From Bradyrhizobium sp. Y36 (GTDB taxonomy: Bacteria; Pseudomonadota; Alphaproteobacteria; Rhizobiales; Xanthobacteraceae): 64,000 nucleotides of DNA. Shown piece after piece: positions 12,808 through 28,783 of this stretch; the first letter of the stretch is position 1, and the number at the start of each line of letters is the position of its first letter. The stretch spans positions 62,001-126,000 of the forward strand of contig NZ_NWTI01000021.1 in the NCBI RefSeq assembly GCF_002531575.1, given 5' to 3'. Both the position numbers and the translations under genes were made by a program. The notes below the pieces were generated by a model. The model was not told the DNA's origin and made no database searches. It saw nothing but the letters and a program-made list of their open reading frames with translations.

Positions 12808-14067
12808 ATGCAATTGACCTCGCGCCTTGCGTTGATGAACTGGCTCACCGGCCAGGGGCTCACGGGCCTGCCCGAAATCGAACTGCTCCGCGGCTTCTGC
12901 GAGCGCTGCTGCGCCGAAGGGCTGGAGCTGTCGCGCGCGCTCGTCGTGATCGACACGCTGCATCCGATCTACGAAGGCCGCGGCTTTCGCTGGAGCGACC
13001 GGCCCAGCAACGAGAGCGACGCGTTCGAGTACGGCTCGACCGCCGACGGCGACGCCGCCGCAAGCTGGCGCCGCTCGGTGTTCTTCCACATGCTCGAGAA
13101 TGGCCACGACGAGATGGTGATCGATCTTGCCGACGCGCCGTCGATGGATTTCTCGCAGATCGGCGAGCTCGCCGAGAAGGGCCACAAGCACTATCTCGCC
13201 TTCGTGCACCGCTTCGGCGAGAACGGCGCGCTCGGCCTGATGGACTGTCTCTATTCCTGCTGGACCACGCGGCGCGACAGCGGCTTCAGCGAAGCCGAGC
13301 TGGATTCGCTGCGCGATCTCGTGCCGGTGCTGGGGCTCGCGATCAAATCGGCGCAGCAGGTCGACATCGCGCGCACGCTCGGGCGCGTCTATCTCGGCCG
13401 CGACGCCTCCGCGCAGGTGCTGGCCGGGCGCATCTCGCGCGGCGTCACCGAGCGCATCAAGGCCGTGCTGTGGTACTCGGATTTGCGCGGCTCGACCGCG
13501 ATCAGCGAGAGCATCGGCCCGGACGAGATCATCCCGTTCCTCAACGACTATGCGCAGGCCGTAATCGACGCGATCCACGATGCCGGCGGCGACGTGCTCA
13601 AGCTGATCGGCGACGGCGTGCTCGCGATGTTCTGGGGCGAAGACATGGCGGATGCGCGGCGCGCTGCGCTGCGCGCCGAGCATCTGTTCCGCAAGAACGT
13701 CGCGGCGCTGAACAAGCGGCGGGAGGCCGACGGCCGTCCGACCACCTCGGCCTATATCGGCCTGCATGTCGGCGAGGTCTTTTACGGCAATATCGGCAGC
13801 CAGGACCGGCTCGACTTCACCGTGGTCGGCCCGACCGTCAACGAGGTCAGCCGCATCGCCTCGATGAGCCGCTCGGTCGATCGCGAATTGCTGGCGTCCT
13901 CCGAATTCTACAAGGGCCTCGACGCCGCCGGCCGGCGCTATCTCGTCTCCACCGGCCGCTATGCGCTACGCGGCATCGGCCGCGCGCAGGATCTCTACAC
14001 GCTCGACCCCGATGTCGATTCGAGCGAGCCGGTGACGGGAAGCTACGAGCGGTACCTGACGGGTTAG
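12808..14067 (+). CDS. Adenylate/guanylate cyclase, class III, soluble
   Basis: A 419-residue cytosolic cyclase. The N-terminal 190 or so residues form a sensor-like region without recognisable motif (GAF-like in position). The catalytic domain shows the two metal Asp in WYSDLRGSTAIS and IGDGVLAMFW, then HVGEVFYGNIG, DFTVVGPTVNEVSRI (transition-state Asn and Arg both present) and a substrate-side Asp in the DFT segment, as in ATP-using enzymes. It should make cAMP, probably as a homodimer. Rhizobia carry many such cyclases, each with its own sensor. It stands alone, divergent from the MFS gene. Confidence 0.87.
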   Translation: MQLTSRLALMNWLTGQGLTGLPEIELLRGFCERCCAEGLELSRALVVIDTLHPIYEGRGFRWSDRPSNESDAFEYGSTADGDAAASWRRSVFFHMLENGHDEMVIDLADAPSMDFSQIGELAEKGHKHYLAFVHRFGENGALGLMDCLYSCWTTRRDSGFSEAELDSLRDLVPVLGLAIKSAQQVDIARTLGRVYLGRDASAQVLAGRISRGVTERIKAVLWYSDLRGSTAISESIGPDEIIPFLNDYAQAVIDAIHDAGGDVLKLIGDGVLAMFWGEDMADARRAALRAEHLFRKNVAALNKRREADGRPTTSAYIGLHVGEVFYGNIGSQDRLDFTVVGPTVNEVSRIASMSRSVDRELLASSEFYKGLDAAGRRYLVSTGRYALRGIGRAQDLYTLDPDVDSSEPVTGSYERYLTG

Positions 14068-14071
14068 GTTC

Positions 14072-14211
14072 GTCGTCCCCGCGAACGCGGGGACCCATAC
14101 CGCGTGATCTATCGAATGCGGACGGTGCCAGTCCCAACGGACATGTGTAACGGCGAGCCTTCGTCAAACTTCTCCCTGGGGTTATGGGTCCCCGCGTTCG
14201 CGGGGACGACG
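14072..14211. repeat. Palindromic intergenic repeat, family B, copy 1
   Basis: The outer arms are GTCGTCCCCGCGAACGCGGGGACC and its reverse complement at 14187-14211 (each arm a hairpin around CGAACG), separated by about 90 bases of unrelated sequence. A second copy is at 26917-27053. Both lie directly downstream of a stop codon. Confidence 0.8.
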
Positions 14212-14242
14212 GCGGAAGTCGTTGCTCGAACTCCAAGCGTGG

Positions 14243-15487: not shown

Positions 15488-15607
15488 GGCTCATTTCCTG
15501 CAAAGTCGGATGGGCGCGAGTATCCGGCTCCGGGGCCCGTCAAACCCACCCGGTTTCCGACAGGGGCGAATATCGGCCGGGAGGGGAACCGATGCAGCCA
15601 GATGCAT

Positions 15608-15624
15608 TTGCAAATGAGTTGCAA
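15608..15624. promoter_or_regulatory. Candidate Mur/Fur-family operator overlapping the mntH promoter
   Basis: TTGCAAATGAGTTGCAA is two TTGCAA half-sites 5 bases apart, in the same style as the MUR boxes described before mntH in rhizobia. The right half-site (15619-15624) can serve as -35, with TATTCT at 15641-15646 as -10 after 16 bases, so repressor and polymerase would compete. The predicted transcript start falls at about the ATG at 15653. Confidence 0.6.
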
Positions 15625-15652
15625 TAAGAACGAAGTTGGGTATTCTGGCCTC

Positions 15653-17005
15653 ATGGATGCCCGATCTCCCGACCTGACGCCCGACGCCGCCGGCTGGCGT
15701 GCGGATTCGCCCGCCACCAAGAGCCTCGCCGAGGTTAATTCCACCATCGCCATTCCGGCCTCGGGCCGCTGGTGGCGGCGGCTGCTCGCCTTTGTCGGTC
15801 CGGGCTATCTGGTCTCGGTCGGCTACATGGACCCCGGCAACTGGGCGACCGATCTCGCTGGCGGGTCGAAGTTCGGTTACACGCTGCTCTCGGTCATCCT
15901 GCTCTCGAACCTGATGGCGATCCTGCTGCAGTCGCTCGCAGCGCGACTCGGCATCGTCACCGACCGCGATCTGGCACAGGCCTGCCGCGGCACCTATTCG
16001 CCGGCGGTGAACTTCCTGCTGTGGCTGGCCTGCGAGGCGGCGATCATCGCCTGCGATCTCGCCGAGGTGATCGGCACCGCGATCGCGCTGAAGCTGCTGT
16101 TCGGCATTCCCCTGATCGGCGGCGCGCTGCTCGCGGCGCTCGACGCCTTCCTGCTGCTGCTGCTGATGAACCGCGGCTTCCGCTTCCTCGAAGCCTTCGT
16201 CATCGCGCTGCTGGCGGTGATCGCGATCTGCTTCGCGGTCCAGATCGTGGCTGCGGCGCCGCCGGTCGCGGAGGTCCTGCACGGCTTCATGCCGAAGAGC
16301 GAGATCTTCACCAACCCCGAAATGCTCTACATCGCGATCGGCATCATCGGCGCGACGGTGATGCCGCATAATCTCTATCTGCACTCCTCGATCGTGCAGA
16401 CGCGTGCCTATGAGCGCAACGACGAAGGCCGCCGCGAGGCGATCAAATGGGCGACGACGGACTCCACCATCGCCCTGATGCTGGCGCTGTTCATCAACGC
16501 CGCGATCCTCGTCGTGGCCGCCGCGACCTTCCACAAGAGCGGTCATTCGGATGTCGCCGAGATCGGGCAGGCGTTCGAGCTGCTGTCGCCGCTGCTCGGC
16601 CTCGGCATTGCCTCTACGCTGTTCGCGGTGGCGCTGCTCGCCTCCGGCCTGAACTCGACGGTGACGGCAACGCTCGCCGGCCAGATCGTGATGGAAGGCT
16701 TTCTCGATCTGCGGCTGCCGAGCTGGGCGCGCCGCCTGCTCACGCGCGGCATCGCCATCATTCCGGTGATCGTGGTCACCGCCATCTATGGCGAGCGCGG
16801 CACGGCCGATCTGCTGGTGTTCAGCCAGGTCGTGCTGTCGATGCAGTTGCCCTTCGCCGTCATCCCGCTGGTCCGCTTCGTCTCCGACCGCCGCAAGATG
16901 GGCAAGTTCGCGATTCCCTCCTACGTCGCGGCGATCGCGTGGATCGTCGCGGGCGTCATCGTGGTCCTGAACCTGAAGCTGTTGTTCGACACGTTGTTTG
17001 GGTGA
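15653..17005 (+). CDS. mntH: Nramp-family Mn2+/H+ symporter MntH
   Basis: A 450-residue Nramp transporter with about 11 helices. The diagnostic metal site of helix 1, MDPGNWATD (DPGN), and of helix 6, [10 protein letters not shown] (MPHN), are both intact. In Bradyrhizobium, MntH is the main manganese importer and is repressed by the Fur-family protein Mur. Earlier in-frame starts at 15602 and 15614 lie inside the operator, so I take the ATG at 15653. No Shine-Dalgarno is visible before it, and a promoter placed by its -35/-10 would start transcription near this ATG, so the message may be leaderless. Confidence 0.93.
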
Positions 17006-17492
17006 GTGCAGGGACTGCCCGCACGTTCCGCGCGGAGGAACCTGCGACGGGCTGCTCGCTAGCGCGAGCCGGCCGTACCCGTTTCGCGCGAACGTGGGTC
17101 CAACCCCTCGAAAATGCGCGCCGGCCGGTGACCGACGCTTTCGTCGCGCGCCGACGAACTACCGCTTTTCAATTGGTGCGAAGAGGGTATACTACCTTCA
17201 ATTGCTGATGGGCCATATTTGCTGACAGGCCAAATTATGACGTTGCGTTTTTCAGGATTGATTTTTCTCCCCGCGGGATAATCGGCGGTCCCGCGCCGGA
17301 GTAGATGCGCCGGTCGCATTCTCTCCGGACAATTGGAATGGGTTGCGCGCAAGCTAGGCGCGCGAAGCCAGTGGCCCCGCCATTGGTGATCGACTGATTT
17401 TTGCTGCGCGGGTTCACGTCCTGGGAGGGGACGATGATCAGGCCAGAAAGCGTTGATTGCTGCGTTGAAGTCATTGATGAGCGTGTACTGCC
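17006..17492. other. Intergenic region of 487 bases, no gene seen
   Basis: Between mntH and the cyclase/ATPase gene there is no supportable gene. The sequence is less GC-rich than its surroundings in its middle part (about 17160-17260) and has several AT-rich tracts such as 17240-17270, where a promoter for the downstream four-gene unit could lie. I find no clear -35/-10 pair, EcfG-type site or strong palindrome. Confidence 0.4.
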
Positions 17493-20400
17493 GTGACCAA
17501 GTGTCCCGCATGTTCAGCCCGTGTCGCTCGCGAGCATCGCTTCTGCTCTCAATGCGGCGCGCGCCTCGATCGCGCCGTGGAGCAGCCCTCCGGTCCATCG
17601 GCGGCCAGCACAACTGACCGCGAGGTGCGGGTTGTTCCGCTGCAAGATCATGCGGCGGTTCGGTCACAGATGTTGACCGAAAACAAGCAGGTCAGCGTTC
17701 TCTTCGTCGACGTCTGCGACTCGACATCGCTGCTCCAGCACGCCGACCCCGAGGAATCCCGCAATTATCTCGGCAAGGCCCTGAACCATTTGGCCGAAGC
17801 GGTCGGGACCTATGGCGGCACGGTGAGTCAGTTGCTCGGCGACGGGCTCGTCGCCTTGTTCGGTGCGCCCGTGGCGCAGGAGGATCACGCCCTGCGCGCG
17901 TGCCTTGCGGCCCTCAAGATGCAGAGGGCAACCGTTCCCGGCCACGAGGTTCATGGCATGGCCAGTCCGATGCTGCGCATCGGCATCAATTCGGGCGAAG
18001 TCCTGGTCGGCGTCGTCGGACAATACGGCTGGTCGCATTACGGGGCCGACGGCAAGACGATTCACCTTGCATCGCGGCTCGAAAAGATGGCCCCGCCCGG
18101 CGGCATTCTGATCAGTGCCGTGACGCAGCGCCTCGTCGCGCAGCAGATCGACACGCGGCCGGTGGGGACGCGGCCGGTGCGAGGGCTGGACGACCCGGTC
18201 GAGCTCCATGAGGTCGTGGTCGCCACTGAAAGCTCGGCGGCCGCGCCTCTGACGCGCAAGCAGCGCTGGGCGCCCCTGGTCGGCCGCGAAGAGTCTTTGC
18301 GGATCCTGACTGCGGATCTCGACATCGTTCGAACCGGCGTGATGCGGACGATCGGGCTGTGCGGCGATGCCGGGATCGGCAAGTCCCGCTTGATCGCCGA
18401 CTGGATCGCCGCGCTCGCAAGCCACGGCACGGAGGTCTGCCTTTCGCAGGCGAGAGGTTATGCAAGCGCACGCGCCTACAGCACTGCTGCGGACCTGATC
18501 TCAAGCCTGGCCGGGTTGCCGCAAACAAGCGCGACGGACCCACAATCCGTCAGGCAGATCCTGGCCGCCGAATGGGCCAGCGAAGGTGCCGCGCATCTGG
18601 CAGCGGTCAATGACTTGCTGGGTCTGGCGGCGCCGGACCAGGCTTGGCTGGCGCTGAATCCCGTCCAGCGGCGGCGGCGAATTGGTGACGCATTGTTGTG
18701 GCTCGTGCGCAGACGCGCCCAGGCAGGTCCGTTCGTGCTCGTGCTCGAGGATGTTTTCCTGGCCGACCGCGAGAGCCGGCGGTTGTTCGAGGCGCTGCTT
18801 CCAAAGCTTCAGGGTCTGCCCATCCTGGTCTGTGTCAGCTATCGACCCGATTTCGAGCATCAGTGGCGTCAGGCCCCATGGTTCGCGGAGCGCGTGATCG
18901 AGCCCCTTCGCGACGGCGAGCTGCTCAGGCTCGCGCGCGCCCTGATGGGGGACGATCCGTCCGTGCTCGGCATCATGAACGAACTGGTCGGGCGCGCCGA
19001 CGGCAATCCCTTCTTCCTGGAGCAGTTGGTCATCACGCTGATCGACGACGGATCGCTGGAGGGGACGCCGGGTGCATACCGGCTGCAGCGGCCGCCCGGC
19101 GAGCTGCGCGTGCCGGGCTCCATCGCCGCGGTGATCGGCGCGCGCGTCGACAGGCTGCCCGAAGCTGCCAAGTCCGCGCTCGAGGCCGCGGCGATCCTCG
19201 GCGACCCCATCACGGGTGAACTGATCGCCGCGATGCAGGCCGTGGACTTGGGGCGTGCCGAAGAGCTGCTGAGCCTGTGCGTCGCGTCCGGCTTGTTGAC
19301 GGGACCAGATCAGGCGCGCGGCCCGCTCGATCGGCATGCCTTCGCGTTTCGCCACGCGCTGGTGCGCGATGTCGTGCTCGGTGCCCTCACGCGTGCGCGG
19401 CTCAAGGCGCTGCATCGTCAGGCTTTCCTGGCGCTGCATGCGCGGCCGGGAGCGGCTGAGGCGGACGTCGCCCCCGCACTTGCGCACCATGCCTTCAAAG
19501 GGGAGGAGTGGGAGCAGGCGGCGAGGTTCACCGTCAAGTCGATGGCGCGTGCGATCTCGCGCTCGGCCAATCAGGAGGCCCTTCAACTGTTCGAGAAGGG
19601 TCTTCAGGCAGCCCGACGCGTCGACGACGCCTCGGTCGCGCAGACCCTGGAGCTCGCGCTTCGCCTGGAAGCCATCGGGGCGATGCTGGCCCTCGGACAG
19701 ATCGACGACATCTTCAGCAATATGGAGCGTGCGGAAGCCATCGCGGTGCAACTGAACGATCAGCGCGCGCGGGCGGCGGTGTCGACCGAGACGGCGGTGT
19801 TCCTGTGGATGCGCGGTCGCTTCGAGCAGGGTCTGCGCTATGCCACGCGGGGTCTCGAGGCGGCGCGCCTCGCGCAACGCCGCCACATGATGATGGCGGC
19901 GCATCAGACCCGGTTGATGAATCTCCACGCTCTCGGTCGATATGCAGACGCCGCCATGGAGGGGCAGATTCTGCTCTCCGACTACGGACCGGAGCTGTCG
20001 GCGCATTGCGTCCAGCCCGGATGGGCCGCCATCCCCATCATCAATCTGTATGCGTTTCATGCCAGCACGCTCTGGCGGCTGGGAGACAGTGCAAGGGCGC
20101 ACGCGTTTTGCGCCAAGGCCTACGAAATCTTGTCGAACATCAACCATCCTTATTCCCGTCTGCTGATCGACACCGTCCAGTCGCAGATCTGGATCGAGAG
20201 CAGGGAGCTCGATCGTGCCGAGACCTTGATGCGCACGGGCGTGCAGCAATGCATGACGCACAACGTCCCGACCATGCTTTCGGTTTGCACGGGCGTTCTC
20301 GGCAGCGCGCTCGCGCGCAACGGCAAGGCCGCCGAGGCGGCGACGATGCTGGAGAAGGGGTTCGCCGACCGCATCTACGAGGCGGCCGGGCCCTACGGCC

Positions 20401-20690
20401 GGACGTTCATGCGCGTGAGCCTGGGCGCCGCCTATCGCAAGCTCGATCGGCTCGACGATGCCATCGCGGTCGGTCGCAAGGCCGTCGAGGAGGCTGCCGA
20501 AGAATACGGTCACCAGACCGAAGCCCTGTTCGAGCTTGCGGAGGCCTTGCGGCAGGCCGGCGATCTTGCGGGTGCCGAAGCGCATTTCAGGCGGGTCGCC
20601 GAGGCAGCGGAGCGGCTGGGCATGCCCCACTATCAAGGACGAGCCGCAGCGGTGCTCGCAGATTGGCGGAAGGACGGGTATGCAGCATGA
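17493..20690 (+). CDS. Zinc-ribbon / class III cyclase / STAND-type ATPase / TPR regulator
   Basis: A 1065-residue multidomain protein. Residues 1-25 form a zinc ribbon (C4xxC7, C18xxC21). The cyclase domain (about 60-235) keeps the metal Asp positions in FVDVCDSTS and LLGDGLVALFG, but the usual V-N-x-A-x-R reads TIHLASRL, with His for the transition-state Asn. A P-loop GDAGIGKSRL (about 290) starts an AAA/STAND ATPase, with LVLEDVFLADRESR near 425; TPR-like helical repeats fill about 650-1060. Such proteins couple nucleotide cyclisation to ligand or partner sensing. GTG start at 17493. Its TGA overlaps the next ATG (ATGA). Confidence 0.85.
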   Translation: MTKCPACSARVAREHRFCSQCGARLDRAVEQPSGPSAASTTDREVRVVPLQDHAAVRSQMLTENKQVSVLFVDVCDSTSLLQHADPEESRNYLGKALNHLAEAVGTYGGTVSQLLGDGLVALFGAPVAQEDHALRACLAALKMQRATVPGHEVHGMASPMLRIGINSGEVLVGVVGQYGWSHYGADGKTIHLASRLEKMAPPGGILISAVTQRLVAQQIDTRPVGTRPVRGLDDPVELHEVVVATESSAAAPLTRKQRWAPLVGREESLRILTADLDIVRTGVMRTIGLCGDAGIGKSRLIADWIAALASHGTEVCLSQARGYASARAYSTAADLISSLAGLPQTSATDPQSVRQILAAEWASEGAAHLAAVNDLLGLAAPDQAWLALNPVQRRRRIGDALLWLVRRRAQAGPFVLVLEDVFLADRESRRLFEALLPKLQGLPILVCVSYRPDFEHQWRQAPWFAERVIEPLRDGELLRLARALMGDDPSVLGIMNELVGRADGNPFFLEQLVITLIDDGSLEGTPGAYRLQRPPGELRVPGSIAAVIGARVDRLPEAAKSALEAAAILGDPITGELIAAMQAVDLGRAEELLSLCVASGLLTGPDQARGPLDRHAFAFRHALVRDVVLGALTRARLKALHRQAFLALHARPGAAEADVAPALAHHAFKGEEWEQAARFTVKSMARAISRSANQEALQLFEKGLQAARRVDDASVAQTLELALRLEAIGAMLALGQIDDIFSNMERAEAIAVQLNDQRARAAVSTETAVFLWMRGRFEQGLRYATRGLEAARLAQRRHMMMAAHQTRLMNLHALGRYADAAMEGQILLSDYGPELSAHCVQPGWAAIPIINLYAFHASTLWRLGDSARAHAFCAKAYEILSNINHPYSRLLIDTVQSQIWIESRELDRAETLMRTGVQQCMTHNVPTMLSVCTGVLGSALARNGKAAEAATMLEKGFADRIYEAAGPYGRTFMRVSLGAAYRKLDRLDDAIAVGRKAVEEAAEEYGHQTEALFELAEALRQAGDLAGAEAHFRRVAEAAERLGMPHYQGRAAAVLADWRKDGYAA

Positions 20691-21967
20691 AACTCTCGAC
20701 CTATGAACCCGACGCGTTGGCGCCGGGAATACGCAGGCTCTCCTACGGTCTGTTCTGCTGGCTCAACCGCCACATCGTCGTCTTGCGCGCGCTCGGCGCG
20801 CTGTTGCGGCGCTGGCCCTCCATCGGGGGCCCATTCGGCCTGGTGGCCCGCGCCAGCGCGGTCAAGGATGTGTTGACGCGCACGCCCAGCTTTTCCAACA
20901 CGGCGCATGCCGCCAACATGGTGTCCGGGGACTACCTCATCGGCATGGATCCCGGCCCGACCTACACGGCCGACAGGGCTCTGGTCCGCGAGCGCCTCGA
21001 CGCCCTGGATGTTCCGAACGCGTCCGACGAGGAGGCCAAGAGACGGATCGGGATGCTGGAATCCGGTGATCGCAGTTTCGATCTGATCGAGAACTATCTG
21101 ATGTGGGTCGTCTTCCACGCCATGAAGCCGCTGTTCGGATCGGCGACCGACGCGGTGGTGGCAGGCTCGGCGGACCCGGCCGCGCAAGCCGCCGTCGATG
21201 AAGGCCTGCAACGGCAGTACATGCTGGAGATCCGGTATGTTGCAGGTCAATTGCTGGCCGGCAGCCTTGCAACGCTAGACCTTCGGCGGCGGGCGGAGAC
21301 CTGTGGCGATGCGCTTCAGGCGCGGATCGATCGCGTGACCGGCCCCATCGGCACCGCGTGGGGTGTCAAAAGCGCATCCCGGGACATTGAACGAAACGCG
21401 GTGGGGCTTGCCTGGATTTCGCATCCGGTCACCGTTCAATCGGGAGCCCTTGCCGTGCAGGAGCTCCTCGACCGCCCGAAGGTCTACGAAAAACTCTGGT
21501 CCCGGGCCCAGACTCTCAAGGACGGCGTCTGGACCGACACGGGTTTCCGCAAGGATGTGCGCGACCATGTGCTCGAGCTCATGCGTTTCCGCCCGATCTT
21601 TCCGCTGCTGGCGCGCGACGTGCCGCGGGACACGGAACTGCAGACGGGCGCGCGACAGAACGCCAAATGCCCGGGTGGCGGGAAGGTGTCGCTGCTGGGG
21701 ATCGCCGCTCTGTTCGATCCGAGCGTGGTCTCCGACAGCAGAAGCTTCTGCCCGGAGCGCGACTGGGGCAGCGAAGATCCGCTGCGCTATCTCATGTTCG
21801 GATATGGCTACCGCCAATGTCCTGCCCGGGACCACGCGGTGGATATCCTGACGAGCGCGCTGATCGGATTGCTGACGTTGCCCCGGCTACAGCTGGCGCG
21901 CGGTGAAGGCAAGGCCATCACCTATGACGGGCCGCTGATGTTGACCATGCGCATGCGTATCACCTGA
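20687..21967 (+). CDS. Cytochrome P450-like haem protein, atypical
   Basis: A 426-residue soluble protein. The K-helix ExxR is E297-L-M-R300 (VLELMRFRP) and the haem loop reads FGYGYRQCPARDHA with the Cys thiolate at about 378. So the haem site of a P450 is present. Missing is the I-helix acid-alcohol pair (A/G-G-x-D/E-T): the matching region, VGLAWISHPVTVQSGALAVQELL, has none. P450s without this pair often use peroxide or isomerise hydroperoxides rather than activate O2 (known for some families; inference here). It begins inside the ATGA overlap with the cyclase gene and is followed 19 bases later by the membrane-protein gene. Confidence 0.78.
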   Translation: MKLSTYEPDALAPGIRRLSYGLFCWLNRHIVVLRALGALLRRWPSIGGPFGLVARASAVKDVLTRTPSFSNTAHAANMVSGDYLIGMDPGPTYTADRALVRERLDALDVPNASDEEAKRRIGMLESGDRSFDLIENYLMWVVFHAMKPLFGSATDAVVAGSADPAAQAAVDEGLQRQYMLEIRYVAGQLLAGSLATLDLRRRAETCGDALQARIDRVTGPIGTAWGVKSASRDIERNAVGLAWISHPVTVQSGALAVQELLDRPKVYEKLWSRAQTLKDGVWTDTGFRKDVRDHVLELMRFRPIFPLLARDVPRDTELQTGARQNAKCPGGGKVSLLGIAALFDPSVVSDSRSFCPERDWGSEDPLRYLMFGYGYRQCPARDHAVDILTSALIGLLTLPRLQLARGEGKAITYDGPLMLTMRMRIT

Positions 21968-21986
21968 GCGAGCGGAGAAGACGGCC

Positions 21987-23798
21987 ATGCTCGAGATCGT
22001 CCGGCAGCAGATGATCTGCATCGTTGCGCCAGGCTGGAGCGGCGGAGCGGAGCTTCCAGCGCCGCTCCACGATGGGCTGAACGCCTTTCTGCGGGACGTC
22101 GCGGTGGTCCACTTCGCCTCGATCGGGCTGCTCCCGGGCTTGACCGGCGCGCCCAACCCGCAGCCGTCGCTCGTGCTCGAACTTGCCGTCGAGGAGGGCT
22201 TCCGCCCCTACGACCTGTTGTATCGGCTGGTCTACCATCCCGGTGGCACGATGTGGGCGCTGTTCGGCTCCATGATTGCTCCCAACGTTGCAGAGCCCAC
22301 GGCGCAGCATAAGCAGCAATTGCTGGATAAGCTGATGAGCTGGCACAGCATCGCCGATGGCGGCTTCGTCGGCGCCCGCGACCGATCGGTCCGACAGATC
22401 GCGATGGAGAAAGACCTGCTCGATCAGACCCGCGTCGAAGCGCGGAAGCTGAAGCCGAAATACGGCAACGATCGCACCGCCTTCGCACTGGCGCTGGCCC
22501 GGTGGGCCTCTACCAATCCCGATTTCGGGTGGGCGGCCACACCTGCGCCGCGATCCTATTGGCGCGGGAAGGGGGCGGGCATCGGTGCGAAGCTCGCTTA
22601 TCCCGTGGCCGCGATCGTGCTGTGGTTCGCGTTGCTCGGGATCGTCTGGGCATTGCCGCGCGCCTATAACTGGTTGTTCGGCGCGCCGGGGCACGTCGGG
22701 CAGGCCATCGAAAACGCCATCACCGCGACAACCGAATGCCTGTTCACGATGAGCTGGCACGGGCTGCTTGCGTTTGCGATCATTGTCTTCCTCGTCTGGC
22801 TGTTCCTGGTGCCGCTGCCCGCGCAATTCGTGTCGTGGAGGCGCTGGTTGAACAGCGTCCAGCAGGAGCTGGATCGGCCGACCGAGACGCTCTCGTCGCT
22901 GGCCACCTATGTGGGCGGCTGGATCATCGGCGTGCCGCTGCTCCTGGCCGTCGCCGCGTGCGCCATCGCCTACACGCTCGCTCCGCTGGCCTATGCGCTG
23001 GCTCCGGACTATATGCACGCCGTCATCGAACCTAAGCTGCCGAAGCTGACCGGATTGCAGATCATCGTGATCGCTGTCGCCGCGATCATCGTGGTGCTTG
23101 CCATCGGCGCGCTGTTCTACCGGCTCAATCGCTATTTCAAGGGGCTGAGCGAGAGGTTCTTTCATCCGCTTCAAGACGACGTTCCGCGCGCCCAGCAGAT
23201 CCATCCCTCGATCGAGCGATGCGAGGCCGAGTTGGTCGATGGCACCCAGCACATGTTCAGCCTCACGGAGCTGCGCGGTCCGCAATGGTGGAGCGCGTGG
23301 TGCATCCGGGTGGCGATGCGCATCGTGACGTTCGCCGGACGTGTTTTCTTCACGCAAGGCTGGCTCGGCAACGCGCCGGGCATCCATTTCGGCCATTGGC
23401 ACATCATCGACGGCGGTCGCCGCTTTCTGTTCTGCTCGAACTATGACGGCAATTTCGGCGGCTATCTCGACGATTTCATCAACGGGGCGGCCGTCGGCAC
23501 CACGCTGGCCTGGCGCTGGACCCAGCTGCATCCGCGCGACCCGGCGCTGGCGGGGCAGCCCGGCATTGCAAAGCCGCGCAGCTTTCCGCCGACGCGCTTC
23601 GTCGTCTTCCGCGGCGTGAAGTGCGAGCTGAAATTCAAGTCCTATGCGCGCGACAGCATGCTGCCGCATCTCTACCATTTCGACGCCTGCAACCGGACCG
23701 TCGACCAGATCAACCTCGCGACGGGACTGCGCGACGCCCTGTTCGGCGAACGCAACGAGAAGAACGACGACCTGATCATGAGGGCCATCGAGACATGA
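21987..23798 (+). CDS. Large uncharacterised membrane protein in the P450/DyP operon
   Basis: A 603-residue protein with about four membrane helices in its centre (about residues 207-235, 255-280, 310-345, 352-378) flanked by soluble N- and C-terminal parts. The two soluble parts appear related: VHFASIGLLPG, then PSLVLELAVEEGFRPYDLLYRLV in the first, and IHFGHWHIIDG, then RRFLFCSNYDGNFGGYLDDFI in the last (residue patterns H-F, hydrophobic strand, acidic residue-G, Y/D-L). This suggests a duplicated alpha/beta domain, perhaps of the dimeric alpha/beta-barrel kind. I know no function. It overlaps the peroxidase gene by ATGA at 23795-23798, so the two are translated together. Confidence 0.72.
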   Translation: MLEIVRQQMICIVAPGWSGGAELPAPLHDGLNAFLRDVAVVHFASIGLLPGLTGAPNPQPSLVLELAVEEGFRPYDLLYRLVYHPGGTMWALFGSMIAPNVAEPTAQHKQQLLDKLMSWHSIADGGFVGARDRSVRQIAMEKDLLDQTRVEARKLKPKYGNDRTAFALALARWASTNPDFGWAATPAPRSYWRGKGAGIGAKLAYPVAAIVLWFALLGIVWALPRAYNWLFGAPGHVGQAIENAITATTECLFTMSWHGLLAFAIIVFLVWLFLVPLPAQFVSWRRWLNSVQQELDRPTETLSSLATYVGGWIIGVPLLLAVAACAIAYTLAPLAYALAPDYMHAVIEPKLPKLTGLQIIVIAVAAIIVVLAIGALFYRLNRYFKGLSERFFHPLQDDVPRAQQIHPSIERCEAELVDGTQHMFSLTELRGPQWWSAWCIRVAMRIVTFAGRVFFTQGWLGNAPGIHFGHWHIIDGGRRFLFCSNYDGNFGGYLDDFINGAAVGTTLAWRWTQLHPRDPALAGQPGIAKPRSFPPTRFVVFRGVKCELKFKSYARDSMLPHLYHFDACNRTVDQINLATGLRDALFGERNEKNDDLIMRAIET

Positions 23799-25228
23799 AG
23801 CACGCTCCGCGTCTCTCCGAGCAAAGCCACGACATCCAGGGTATCCTCAAGAGCGGCTTCGGCTCGCTCACCGTCAGTCGTTTCAGGCTGCTGACGATCC
23901 ACGACGCGAAGCTGGCGAAGGCATGGCTGGCGCAACTGCTCGCCACCGGCCTGATCGTCAGTGCGGAACAGGTCGGCAAACCGAAGCCGGCGAAGGAGAA
24001 GCAGGAGAAGCAAGAGAAGGAAGAGAAGGAAGAAAAGAAACCCGTCGATGCCGTCGTCTCGATCGGCTTTACCTATTCGGGACTGGTCAAGCTCGGTTGC
24101 CAGGAAACCAGCGACCATCCGTTTCCGACGCCGTTCCGCAGCGGCATGGGCAGCGAGCTGCGCGCCAAGCTGTTACGGGACGAATACCGGCAGTGGACCT
24201 GGACTGACCACGAAGGCCCCGGCGGAGGTGCAGTGGTGCACATCCTACTCGCCGAATGGAGGAGGCGCGGCGTCGCCTCGGGATTGCCTCCGATTAACCC
24301 GAGCGCCTTCTCCGTCATCGAGGCCGGGGACGATTCCGATTTCTTCGACGGGGACGGTAAATTGAGCGAGCCGTTCGGATTTCGCGATGGCCTCGCCCAG
24401 CCGGTGATCCGAGGCCTCAGGGATCAGGATGGCGGGAGCTTGACGCAGGTTCGGGCCGATGCCGCCGGTTTCTACGACGACCGGCTGGTGGAGCCGGGCG
24501 AATTCATCCTGGGCTATCGCAACGAATACGACGAGCTGACTTTTTGCCCGAACGTGCAGGGATGGGCGAGCGCCAGCGGCCGGTTCACCCTGAACGGAAG
24601 CTATCTCGCCGTCCGACAGTTCGAGCAGAACGTGACCGCGTTTAGGGCGTTCGAGGCTGCGCATTCGGACTTCGAGGCAGCGAACGGAGTTTCGGCTGGT
24701 GAGAAGCTGATGGGGCGCAGGAAGAACGGGCTTCCGTTGTCGTGGAAAGGCGACCCGACCGTGCCCGTGTCGGATTCGGCGGCCGATGCGTTCCGCTATC
24801 GCGTCGAGGACGCTAACGGTTTCATGTGCCCCAAGGGGGCCCATGTGCGCCGCTCCAATCCTCGTGACTCGCTCGGCATCGACGTCCAATCGAGCATCAA
24901 GTCATCCAAGCTGCATCGATTGCTGCGGCGTGGGCGCCCCTATGCCGAGGCCTCGGGCCGTCAGGGCATCTTCTTCATCGCCTGCAATGCGGATCTCGAG
25001 CGGCAGTTCGAGTTCATCCACCAGCGTTGGCTGCAAAACCGGAGGTTTGGAACGCTCGAGAGTCAGGATGATCCGATCGTGGGGTCGCAATCGTGTCCGA
25101 AGGCTTTCACCATTCCAGGCGAGGCCAGCGGCAGTGAAGTTTCGCTGCAGCATTTCACGGAGACGCTTGGGGGCGGTTACTTCTTCCTGCCCGGGATCGC
25201 GGCGCTGAAGTTCATCGCCCGGGTTTGA
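23795..25228 (+). CDS. DyP-type haem peroxidase family protein
   Basis: A 477-residue protein with the DyP family marks: G-F-R-D-G (GxxDG, about residues 195-199, catalytic Asp), proximal haem His at about 350 in KGAHVRRSNPR, with the distal Arg in the same segment, and the C-terminal GGGYFFLPGI. DyP peroxidases use H2O2 to oxidise dyes, lignin-like compounds or porphyrins. There is no Tat or Sec signal, so it acts in the cytoplasm or in a compartment. A Lys/Glu-rich low-complexity insert lies at about residues 63-83. The ATG overlaps the stop of the membrane-protein gene. No encapsulin gene is nearby. Confidence 0.88.
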   Translation: MKHAPRLSEQSHDIQGILKSGFGSLTVSRFRLLTIHDAKLAKAWLAQLLATGLIVSAEQVGKPKPAKEKQEKQEKEEKEEKKPVDAVVSIGFTYSGLVKLGCQETSDHPFPTPFRSGMGSELRAKLLRDEYRQWTWTDHEGPGGGAVVHILLAEWRRRGVASGLPPINPSAFSVIEAGDDSDFFDGDGKLSEPFGFRDGLAQPVIRGLRDQDGGSLTQVRADAAGFYDDRLVEPGEFILGYRNEYDELTFCPNVQGWASASGRFTLNGSYLAVRQFEQNVTAFRAFEAAHSDFEAANGVSAGEKLMGRRKNGLPLSWKGDPTVPVSDSAADAFRYRVEDANGFMCPKGAHVRRSNPRDSLGIDVQSSIKSSKLHRLLRRGRPYAEASGRQGIFFIACNADLERQFEFIHQRWLQNRRFGTLESQDDPIVGSQSCPKAFTIPGEASGSEVSLQHFTETLGGGYFFLPGIAALKFIARV

Positions 25229-25297
25229 TGGCGTGCAAGGTTGTTGTTTGCGGGGGACCTTTCCGGAAGGCGCTGCGCACCTTTTCCGGATCGGACC

Positions 25298-26074
25298 TCA
25301 GTCCTGCGGCTCGGACGCGGCATCGCCCTGCGCGTCGATGCGCAGCCAGCCGGAGGGCGCGAGGCGCTGCTGCGGCAGGAAGCGGGCCTTGTAGTCCATC
25401 TTCTTGGAGCCCTCGATCCAGTAGCCGAGATAGACGTAAGGCAGGCCTTGCCGGCGGGCGCGGGCGATGTGGTCGAGGATCATGAAGGTGCCCATCGAGC
25501 GGCTGACCTGGCCCGGCTCGAAGAACGAATAGACCATCGACAGGCCGTCGCTGAGCACGTCGGTCAGCGCCACCGCGATCAGCTCCTCGCCGCGGCCGGT
25601 GATGCCGCTGTCGGGCCCGCGCTTGCGGTACTCGATGATGCGGGTCTCGACATGGCTGTCCTCGACCATCATGGCGTAGTCGAGCACGGTCATGTCGGCC
25701 ATGCCGCCATGGCGGTGGCGGGCATCGAGATAGGCCCGGAACACCGAGTATTGCTCGGAGGTCGGGACCGCGCTGCGCTGCTCGCCGATGATGTCGGAAT
25801 TGCGCGCCATCACCTTGCGGAAGTTGCGGGAGGGCCGGAACTCGTTGGCGACGACCCGGACCGAGACGCAGGCGCGGCACTGGTCGCAGGCCGGCCGGTA
25901 GGCGATCGACTGGCTGCGGCGGAAACCGCCATGGGTCAGGAGGTCGTTGAGATCGCCGGCGCGCTCCCCCACCAGGTGCGTGAACACCTTGCGCTCATGC
26001 CGGCCCGGCAGATAGGGGCACGGAGAGGGCGCCGTCAGGTAGAATTGGGGGGTGTCGCGCGAGTGCTGGGTCAA
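25298..26074 (-). CDS. bpt: Bacterial leucyltransferase Bpt (aspartate/glutamate N-end rule)
   Basis: A 258-residue member of the ATE/Bpt family: N-terminal [17 protein letters not shown], the Cys-rich [16 protein letters not shown], and the transferase part with [13 protein letters not shown] and [22 protein letters not shown]. Bpt transfers Leu from Leu-tRNA to proteins with N-terminal Asp or Glu, marking them for ClpAP. The start is TTG at 26074, the only one that keeps the conserved DTPQFYLT beginning. It converges with the peroxidase gene, leaving about 70 bases. Confidence 0.9.
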
Positions 26075-26916: not shown

Positions 26917-27053
26917 GTCGTCCCCGCGAACGCGGGGATCCATAACCACAGGGAGCAGTTTGGCGAACACCCACAGTTCATTCTTCGCTGGTACGGATAC
27001 CGCGCGCCATCGAGGGATCACCCGGTATGGGTCCCTGCGTTCGCAGGGACGAC
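26917..27053. repeat. Palindromic intergenic repeat, family B, copy 2
   Basis: Outer arms GTCGTCCCCGCGAACGCGGGGATCC and GGTCCCTGCGTTCGCAGGGACGAC, close to the copy at 14072-14211; the right arm carries paired changes (CCTGCG/CGCAGG) that keep the hairpin. The element ends 9 bases before the hemB stop. Confidence 0.8.
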
Positions 27054-27061
27054 AGCGGAGC

Positions 27062-28783
<1,722 letters not shown>

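Follow-up and report, generated by a model that had tools for sequence, protein, structure and literature searches.

Positions 17493 to 25228 of a 64,000-nucleotide stretch of the Bradyrhizobium sp. Y36 genome (7.33 Mb; contig NZ_NWTI01000021.1), hereafter the window, hold a four-gene unit that belongs to a wider bacterial module, in which a dye-decolorizing peroxidase (DyP) is tied to a membrane protein family and usually also to a P450-like or a catalase-like protein. Support for this unit and for the module at large is strong, and we are nearly certain that both are real. For their function we propose tentatively, with chances a little short of even, a membrane-held, peroxide-driven haem enzyme complex with a regulator, which would process unsaturated-fatty-acid peroxides. 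The genes are called CYC, P450, MEM and DyP in unit order and the flanking genes Nramp and BPT; the nearest related loci are also from Bradyrhizobium. Features of the window are as follows.

17493..20690, +: CYC, 1065 amino acids (aa), GTG start; zinc ribbon, class III nucleotide cyclase, AAA_16 ATPase and TPR (open reading frame (ORF) and Pfam)
20687..21967, +: P450-like protein, 426 aa (ORF, Pfam, predicted fold)
21416..21433, +: P450 I-helix ISHPVT, residues 244-249, no acid (alignment)
21575..21586, +: P450 ExxR, residues 297-300 (alignment)
21818..21820, +: P450 haem-ligand Cys378 (alignment)
21987..23798, +: MEM, 603 aa; two predicted ferredoxin-like domains around about four transmembrane helices (ORF, model, hydropathy, hhalign)
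21987..22541, +: MEM N-terminal ferredoxin-like domain, residues 1-185 (model, hhalign)
22557..23159, +: MEM membrane region, residues 191-391 (model, hydropathy)
23208..23786, +: MEM C-terminal ferredoxin-like domain, residues 408-600, site of the 11 invariant residues (alignment, model, hhalign)
23795..25228, +: peroxidase of the DyP type, 477 aa; its closest relative of known structure is DrDyP, 8RE2/8RE3 (ORF, Pfam, structure-library match)
24377..24391, +: DyP GxxDG motif GFRDG, residues 195-199, with Asp198 (alignment)
24842..24844, +: DyP proximal His350 (alignment, including DrDyP)
24926..24928, +: DyP distal Arg378 (alignment; match to DrDyP R348 derived by hand)
17006..17492, +: region ahead of CYC, from its position probably the promoter
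17006..25297, unstranded: inserted block between Nramp (15602-17005, +) and BPT (25298-26074, -), missing in congeners without the module; both flanking names are presumed from the sequence

The genes run in one direction, with ATGA overlaps at 20687 (CYC/P450) and 23795 (MEM/DyP) and 19 bases between P450 and MEM (21967 to 21987); this layout, described earlier by a model from the letters alone (the sequence-only reading), is borne out by the ORF coordinates. Pfam places CYC with Guanylate_cyc (E 4e-21), AAA_16 (5e-14) and TPR_12 (1e-9), the zinc ribbon falling under its cut-off. The p450 match (E 4e-6) covers the C-terminal part of P450 only, no Pfam family matched MEM, and the significant matches of DyP are to Dyp families (Dyp_perox_C, 1e-9). 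That the four genes form one functional unit, as the same reading held, is upheld by their joint presence or absence at one site and by co-occurrence of the families in distant genomes.

Searches with MEM, own genome included, matched 17 of 149 genomes of the family, 10 of 385 of the class and 26 of 398 of the phylum. Every genome other than the host's with a match was taken up, giving 45 loci, of which L042 was left out because its BLAST match spans the membrane part only and no MEM domain was found. In all 44 remaining loci a DyP gene or domain lies within 109 bases of MEM, and since MEM alone was used for searching, the DyP and P450 partners were not selected for. A P450 is present in 31 loci, a catalase-like protein in eight, neither in five and both in none; the hypergeometric chance of this exclusion is about 7e-6 if the loci are independent, which they are not (L107/L109 and L098-L101 are close relatives), and some loci lie at contig ends. 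A conserved-neighbourhood check, set beforehand as a refuting test, therefore found the families together in distant genomes and left the unit standing. Beyond proximity, the partners fuse: a P450, both MEM domains and DyP share one frame of 1408-1692 aa, in the order P450-MEM-DyP, on plasmids of Novosphingobium aromaticivorans (pNL2), Pararhizobium qamdonense and Sulfitobacter and in ten loci (L031, L034, L036, L041, L044, L098-L101 and L103). Other fusions join MEM to DyP (L029), DyP to P450 (L094) and DyP to the catalase-like protein (L105), and in L089 a MEM-DyP frame is overlapped by a partial P450 frame. Comparison of operons, fusions and joint gain and loss shows that P450, MEM and DyP belong together.

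Within Bradyrhizobium the unit behaves as one insertion. Of 13 congeners that lack the window-type module, all 13 have the Nramp and BPT matches adjoining, 11-577 bp apart; three carriers (L180, L181 and L182) and the window have all four genes between them. The empty-site congeners were chosen for similar BPT genes (96-98 % identical); of these, 12 are among the 30 genus genomes in which MEM had no match, and the other, G904, has a weak match (E 9e-4) elsewhere. MEM occurs in 10 of 40 genus genomes and the window type (≥58 % identity) in six, own genome counted; in G884 the MEM match and BPT are on separate contigs. The same gene order recurs in five Bradyrhizobium loci, and ratios of nonsynonymous to synonymous substitution (dN/dS) of 0.10-0.17 for all four genes, window against B. 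nitroreducens, denote constraint. Identity to the window in G888 is 99.6 % for BPT, 95 % for Nramp, 83 % for CYC, 63 % for P450, 58 % for MEM and 57 % for DyP; at L180, L181 and L182, P450, MEM and DyP are 56-78 % identical and the same-site flanking genes 88-99.6 %. The faster divergence of P450, MEM and DyP than of the flanks suggests allele replacement or fast evolution. Searching the host genome with the window DyP returned only itself. A second nucleotide cyclase two genes away (419 aa, 12808-14067, +) was rejected as a module part because all 16 congeners examined have it, whether or not they carry the module (in L182 it is partial). As a side observation, spurious ORFs at about 14100-14230 and 26940-27000 have similar translations (SSPRTRG, PAFAGTT), a hint of interspersed intergenic palindromic repeats.

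The sequence-only reading described a P450 with ExxR and FGYGYRQC and no acid-alcohol pair in the I-helix, and relatives agree. ExxR and the Cys, the marks of the superfamily, are kept in 27 of 27 module P450s. The I-helix acid of the pair typical of O2-dependent monooxygenases is absent from 26 of them, including the window protein with ISHPVT; the I-helix register is approximate, but in the 26 no acid stands within the 20 residues shown. The predicted fold best matches 3eje, P450BioI with a fatty-acyl carrier protein (Z 34.5, 350 residues, root-mean-square deviation (rmsd) 2.9), and several other P450s tie with it within 1 Z unit, so the match is uninformative on substrate.

We know of no natural substrate for DyPs. 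The identity of the window DyP, also proposed earlier, holds: its haem and peroxide residues are kept, Asp198, His350 and Arg378 being invariant in 24 DyP sequences, in agreement with the class V residues named in passages of PMC10820274. The nearest solved match of the family is DrDyP of Deinococcus radiodurans (DR_A0145, 8RE2/8RE3; E 8e-119). A D. radiodurans plasmid locus (L117) carries, consecutively, a MEM-domain protein, a DyP that matches 8RE3 over its full length and a catalase-family protein, which from its place after DR_A0145 is probably DRA0146. Passages of published work on these proteins report that DRA0146 is without catalase activity (PMC7247583), that the dra0146 transcript is 2-fold lower in a crp mutant (PMC4868304) and that DrDyP might, speculatively, interact with other proteins such as encapsulin (PMC10820274).

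The N- and C-terminal halves of MEM are homologous (hhalign probability 98, E 1.7e-13), which bears out the duplicated domains of the sequence-only reading. Each half is predicted as strand-helix-strand-strand-helix-strand (b-a-b-b-a-b), giving two ferredoxin-like domains in one chain with helices between (AlphaFold2 (AF2) model; predicted local distance difference test score (pLDDT) 72, predicted template modelling score (pTM) 0.64); a hydropathy scan shows five peaks, some of them overlapping, which we interpret as about four membrane segments. At other loci the family is represented by one to three separate proteins, each of about 150-340 aa; of those scanned, four of about 200-236 aa have no membrane peak and one of 333 aa does. 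The window MEM may therefore have arisen by duplication, with a membrane segment linking the two copies. Eleven residues are invariant across 27 MEM sequences, all in the C-terminal half, and may mark a functional pocket there. The middling model aligns with the polyketide decarboxylase Abx(+)O (9ltx) across both domains together (model residues 7-565, Z 11.0, 201 residues, rmsd 4.8), the next match being a ferredoxin-like repeat protein (Z 6.4); at Z about 4 the rows include a polyketide cyclase and antibiotic-biosynthesis monooxygenases. Foldseek alone gave weak matches only (best E 0.075), and hhalign found no homology of MEM with the DyP barrel (probability below 1).

The main mechanistic hint comes from the exchange of partners. 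Eight loci without a P450 bear the catalase-like protein by profile, that of L113 being judged by profile only. A family profile of 13 such proteins, plasmid ones included, best matches 3e4w (320 aa, E 9e-32), which we take to be a mycobacterial catalase-related peroxidase, and after it and many true catalases comes the coral allene oxide synthase 1u5u (E 6e-10). Plant CYP74 and the coral catalase-like enzyme are unrelated proteins that both rearrange fatty-acid hydroperoxides; that proteins of similar kinds replace each other here is the hint to the chemistry of the module.

In the proposed complex, the two ferredoxin-like domains of MEM would come together at one face of the membrane as an alpha+beta barrel that keeps the substrate in place or converts it, and DyP would activate H2O2 or an organic hydroperoxide. 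The acid-less P450 may rearrange the substrate or use peroxide with neither O2 nor a redox partner; CYP74/CYP8A1-type P450s and the coral catalase-like allene oxide synthase carry out peroxide chemistry in this manner. The likely substrates would be unsaturated fatty-acid hydroperoxides, and through CYC a cyclic-nucleotide or ATP signal would govern expression or activity. Haem-based peroxide chemistry on a membrane lipid or aromatic compound, as suggested earlier, is plausible, the lipid half more so than the aromatic half; support for the lipid part is indirect and comes from the catalase-like replacement of the P450 and from fatty-acid genes near some plasmid versions. A bolder extension, which we hold to be distinctly improbable, is a bacterial oxylipin-type pathway independent of those of plants, corals and fungi and under cyclic-nucleotide control. 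DyP would then make or activate a fatty-acid hydroperoxide, the acid-less P450 or catalase-like protein would rearrange it, and the MEM barrel would cyclize or capture the reactive product at the membrane, in the extreme case within one polypeptide. If so, Bradyrhizobium and other plant- or skin-associated bacteria might make signals from host fatty acids or disarm them.

Plasmid loci provide the lipid context. Single-domain MEM is common on plasmids (51 records matched one query and two another). Twenty loci were hand-picked from the listed matches and read with flanks of 6 kb, or of 5 kb in the case of L125 and L126; they come from Alpha- and Gammaproteobacteria, Deinococcota, Actinomycetota and Acidobacteriota. 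By profile all 20 carry MEM and DyP and 16 a catalase-like protein; L126, a further locus, has one by annotation only. Genes for oleate hydratase, 3-hydroxyacyl-CoA dehydrogenase, acyl-CoA thioesterase, patatin or acyl-CoA dehydrogenase occur in the stretch in nine of the 20 (L116, L117, L122, L123, L127, L128, L129, L130 and L135), and acyl-CoA dehydrogenase and MaoC lie upstream of the Novosphingobium fusion. Oleate hydratase, found in 203 of 72,556 plasmid records overall, is about 3 kb from MEM in at least seven of the 30 MEM plasmid records listed, six of which resemble copies of one island. These six (L127, L128 and records H34-H37), which the plasmid collection assigns to Novosphingobium, Agrobacterium, Shinella, Sphingobium and Roseomonas, have 98-100 % identical oleate hydratases, each 3.3 kb from MEM; in L127 and L128 the gene stands with TetR, a thioesterase, a 3-hydroxyacyl-CoA dehydrogenase and the catalase-like/MEM/DyP triad. 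The stretch is apparently a recently spread fatty-acid island. On a Methylorubrum plasmid (L136 2004-4812, +), a canonical P450, a ferredoxin and an FAD-dependent oxidoreductase precede the triad; this locus was rejected as an exception to the P450/catalase-like exclusion, its P450 reading AGHETT and matching the module-P450 profile weakly (E 7e-16). The window P450 protein itself matched two Methylobacterium plasmid records, in one of which (L124) the stretch has no MEM or DyP profile match.

A cyclase gene accompanies the unit in this lineage. Homologues of CYC that are likewise large (about 1060 aa) occupy the same operon in Bradyrhizobium, a large CYC lies convergent beyond the DyP end in seven loci (L033, L035, L037, L038, L040, L043 and L045), and smaller cyclase-part proteins lie 29-126 bp from five fusion genes (L026 and L098-L101). 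CYC-like matches number 18 in the host genome, and just one other covers most of the protein; CYC as merely one of many similar cyclases is countered by a module CYC of another genus (one tried), whose best host-genome match is the window CYC (423 vs 321 bits). CYC scored 211.5 bits against the TOMM system kinase/cyclase model TIGR03903, below the cut-off of 705.75. A gene family common to ten loci, none of them Bradyrhizobium, appears to be Crp/Fnr, since two members look like it and the L026 gene is so annotated; cyclic nucleotide monophosphate (cNMP)-binding domains occur in six of 106 flanking proteins. The nucleotide-cyclase link of the sequence-only reading thus finds support in a cyclase gene conserved with the unit and in Crp/Fnr-type genes near related modules. 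Comparison shows that the unit of this lineage includes a cyclase gene, and cyclase control of the module is plausible.

Several observations weigh against fatty-acid peroxide processing by a regulated haem complex. No fatty-acid or lipid gene adjoins the window unit, and the closest solved fold of MEM is that of a polyketide decarboxylase and not of a lipid enzyme. The nine-in-20 count of fatty-acid genes has no matched background, comes from hand-picked loci and includes the island-like oleate hydratase copies. Lipoxygenase was matched in one of 30 module genomes and animal-type peroxidase in eight, with no PF00305 or PF03098 match in the host, so that no hydroperoxide-making fatty-acid dioxygenase is known here; either enzyme as the usual hydroperoxide source is unsupported. 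One P450 of the 27 (L091) has an I-helix acid, five of the 44 loci have neither partner, and no catalase-like gene was found in three of 20 plasmid loci (L120, L121 and L125). The Pfam catalase model matched four of seven catalase-like proteins, two over the cut-off. DrDyP is reported inactive at pH 7.5 (PMC10820274), and another account still places DR_A0146 among the catalases, with a lower efficiency than KatE1 (PMC7143949), each as given in passages of the paper. The regulator is affected as well: CYC has FVD, GDG and the Arg, and in all 13 large module cyclases whose sequence reaches the place of the transition-state Asn, His stands there. The class III signature comprises two metal Asp and a transition-state Asn and Arg, so with His for Asn the CYC product may be something else or nothing. 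In favour of the lipid context, one module has an animal-type haem peroxidase match directly beside it (L105 6269-9295, -; match at G869 C11:101487-103592), inside a frame of 1008 aa that is divergent to MEM at a distance of about 160 bp and stands next to the DyP-catalase-like fusion.

The polyketide-type matches of MEM lead to the rival that carries most weight, unlikely as we think it: tailoring of a secondary metabolite (polyketide, aromatic or terpenoid), with MEM as a membrane cyclase or decarboxylase and DyP and the P450 or catalase-like protein as oxidative tailoring enzymes. Besides the alignment with 9ltx and the polyketide cyclase match, a gene annotated as a SARP regulator precedes the Novosphingobium fusion, and its single-linkage cluster takes in genes of six more fusion loci, apparently each just upstream. 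The surroundings speak otherwise, in that no polyketide synthase, terpene cyclase or non-ribosomal peptide synthetase is among 25 of 138 families listed for the 106 flanking proteins and the unit stands alone at its site. General defence against peroxide or oxidative stress, destroying H2O2 or organic peroxides with no dedicated product, is somewhat less likely again. It would account for the DyP and catalase-like partners, for TetR regulators near several plasmid versions and efflux genes near some, and for the increase of DR_A0145 and DR_A0146 proteins after UVC/vacuum (PMC5731708). Scavenging, however, needs neither a P450 nor a dedicated barrel protein, partner fusion suggests substrate hand-over, and the pH 7.5 and catalase results on the Deinococcus proteins (PMC10820274, PMC7247583) fit it poorly.

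Haem or iron handling, with DyP as an EfeB-like deferrochelatase and MEM moving a tetrapyrrole across the membrane, is highly improbable. A Nramp-like gene lies upstream and what is presumably a HemB-like protein downstream (27062-28468, -), hemA, for 5-aminolevulinate synthase (L121 3582-4811, +), stands upstream of the Sinorhizobium MEM-DyP pair, and the fold type of MEM includes several haem proteins (PMC4835899). The Nramp-like gene and its neighbours nevertheless remain where the module is absent, so its proximity to the unit is inherited, and DyP reached 20.8 bits with the NCBI deferrochelatase/peroxidase model against a cut-off of 428. Chance neighbours in one operon are refuted by the fusions, the 44/44 co-occurrence and the joint gain and loss.

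The module joins proteins so far met singly: DyPs, a 'catalase' reported inactive, P450s without the acid-alcohol pair and a family without a Pfam model. Since DyP is tied in several phyla to partners that are now defined, its role can be put to the test. Should the substrate prove to be a peroxide of an unsaturated fatty acid, those plasmid forms that lie near genes for oleate hydratase, thioesterase and efflux would amount to a mobile trait of fatty-acid tolerance. Among the matches listed from the PMC open-access literature, with subscription papers and preprints outside its scope, no DyP-P450 unit or fusion is described, which agrees within that literature with the earlier statement that no described system has this content. 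The enzyme superfamilies are all known, whereas their combination and the MEM family are apparently undescribed there.

Known systems resemble the module in parts. CYP152 and CYP74 are P450s that have no acid-alcohol pair and use peroxides; CYP152 peroxygenases carry an I-helix Arg-Pro and CYP74 an insertion in the haem-binding loop. Module P450s share the missing acid (26 of 27), but Arg-Pro occurs in the I-helix stretch of none of the 27, the window having His-Pro, and the haem loop (FGYGYRQCPA in the window) has the same length in all 27, with no insertion. DrDyP is by sequence the DyP of a MEM-DyP-catalase-like locus; it differs in a Met at the fifth place of the motif, GFRDG in the window, and was studied alone, the words 'catalase' and 'operon' being absent from the main text of PMC10820274. 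Abx(+)O aligns across both MEM domains, but is 9 % identical to MEM and has a chain of only 206 residues, which leaves no room for membrane helices between its halves. The synthase part of the coral allene oxide synthase-lipoxygenase (AOS-LOX) is matched by the catalase-like partner of related modules, whereas the window has a P450 in its place and is without lipoxygenase; no catalase-like/lipoxygenase fusion was found in the unit with Pfam. The fungal linoleate diol synthases (Ppo), in which an N-terminal peroxidase is fused to a C-terminal P450 (passages of PMC4420034), likewise place a haem peroxidase and a P450 in one protein. Their likeness, drawn by the sequence-only reading, is apt as an analogy and does not extend to the peroxidase, which there belongs to the peroxidase-cyclooxygenase superfamily and here is a DyP. 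The module, moreover, sets a third part, the membrane barrel, between the two enzymes, in the order P450-MEM-DyP.

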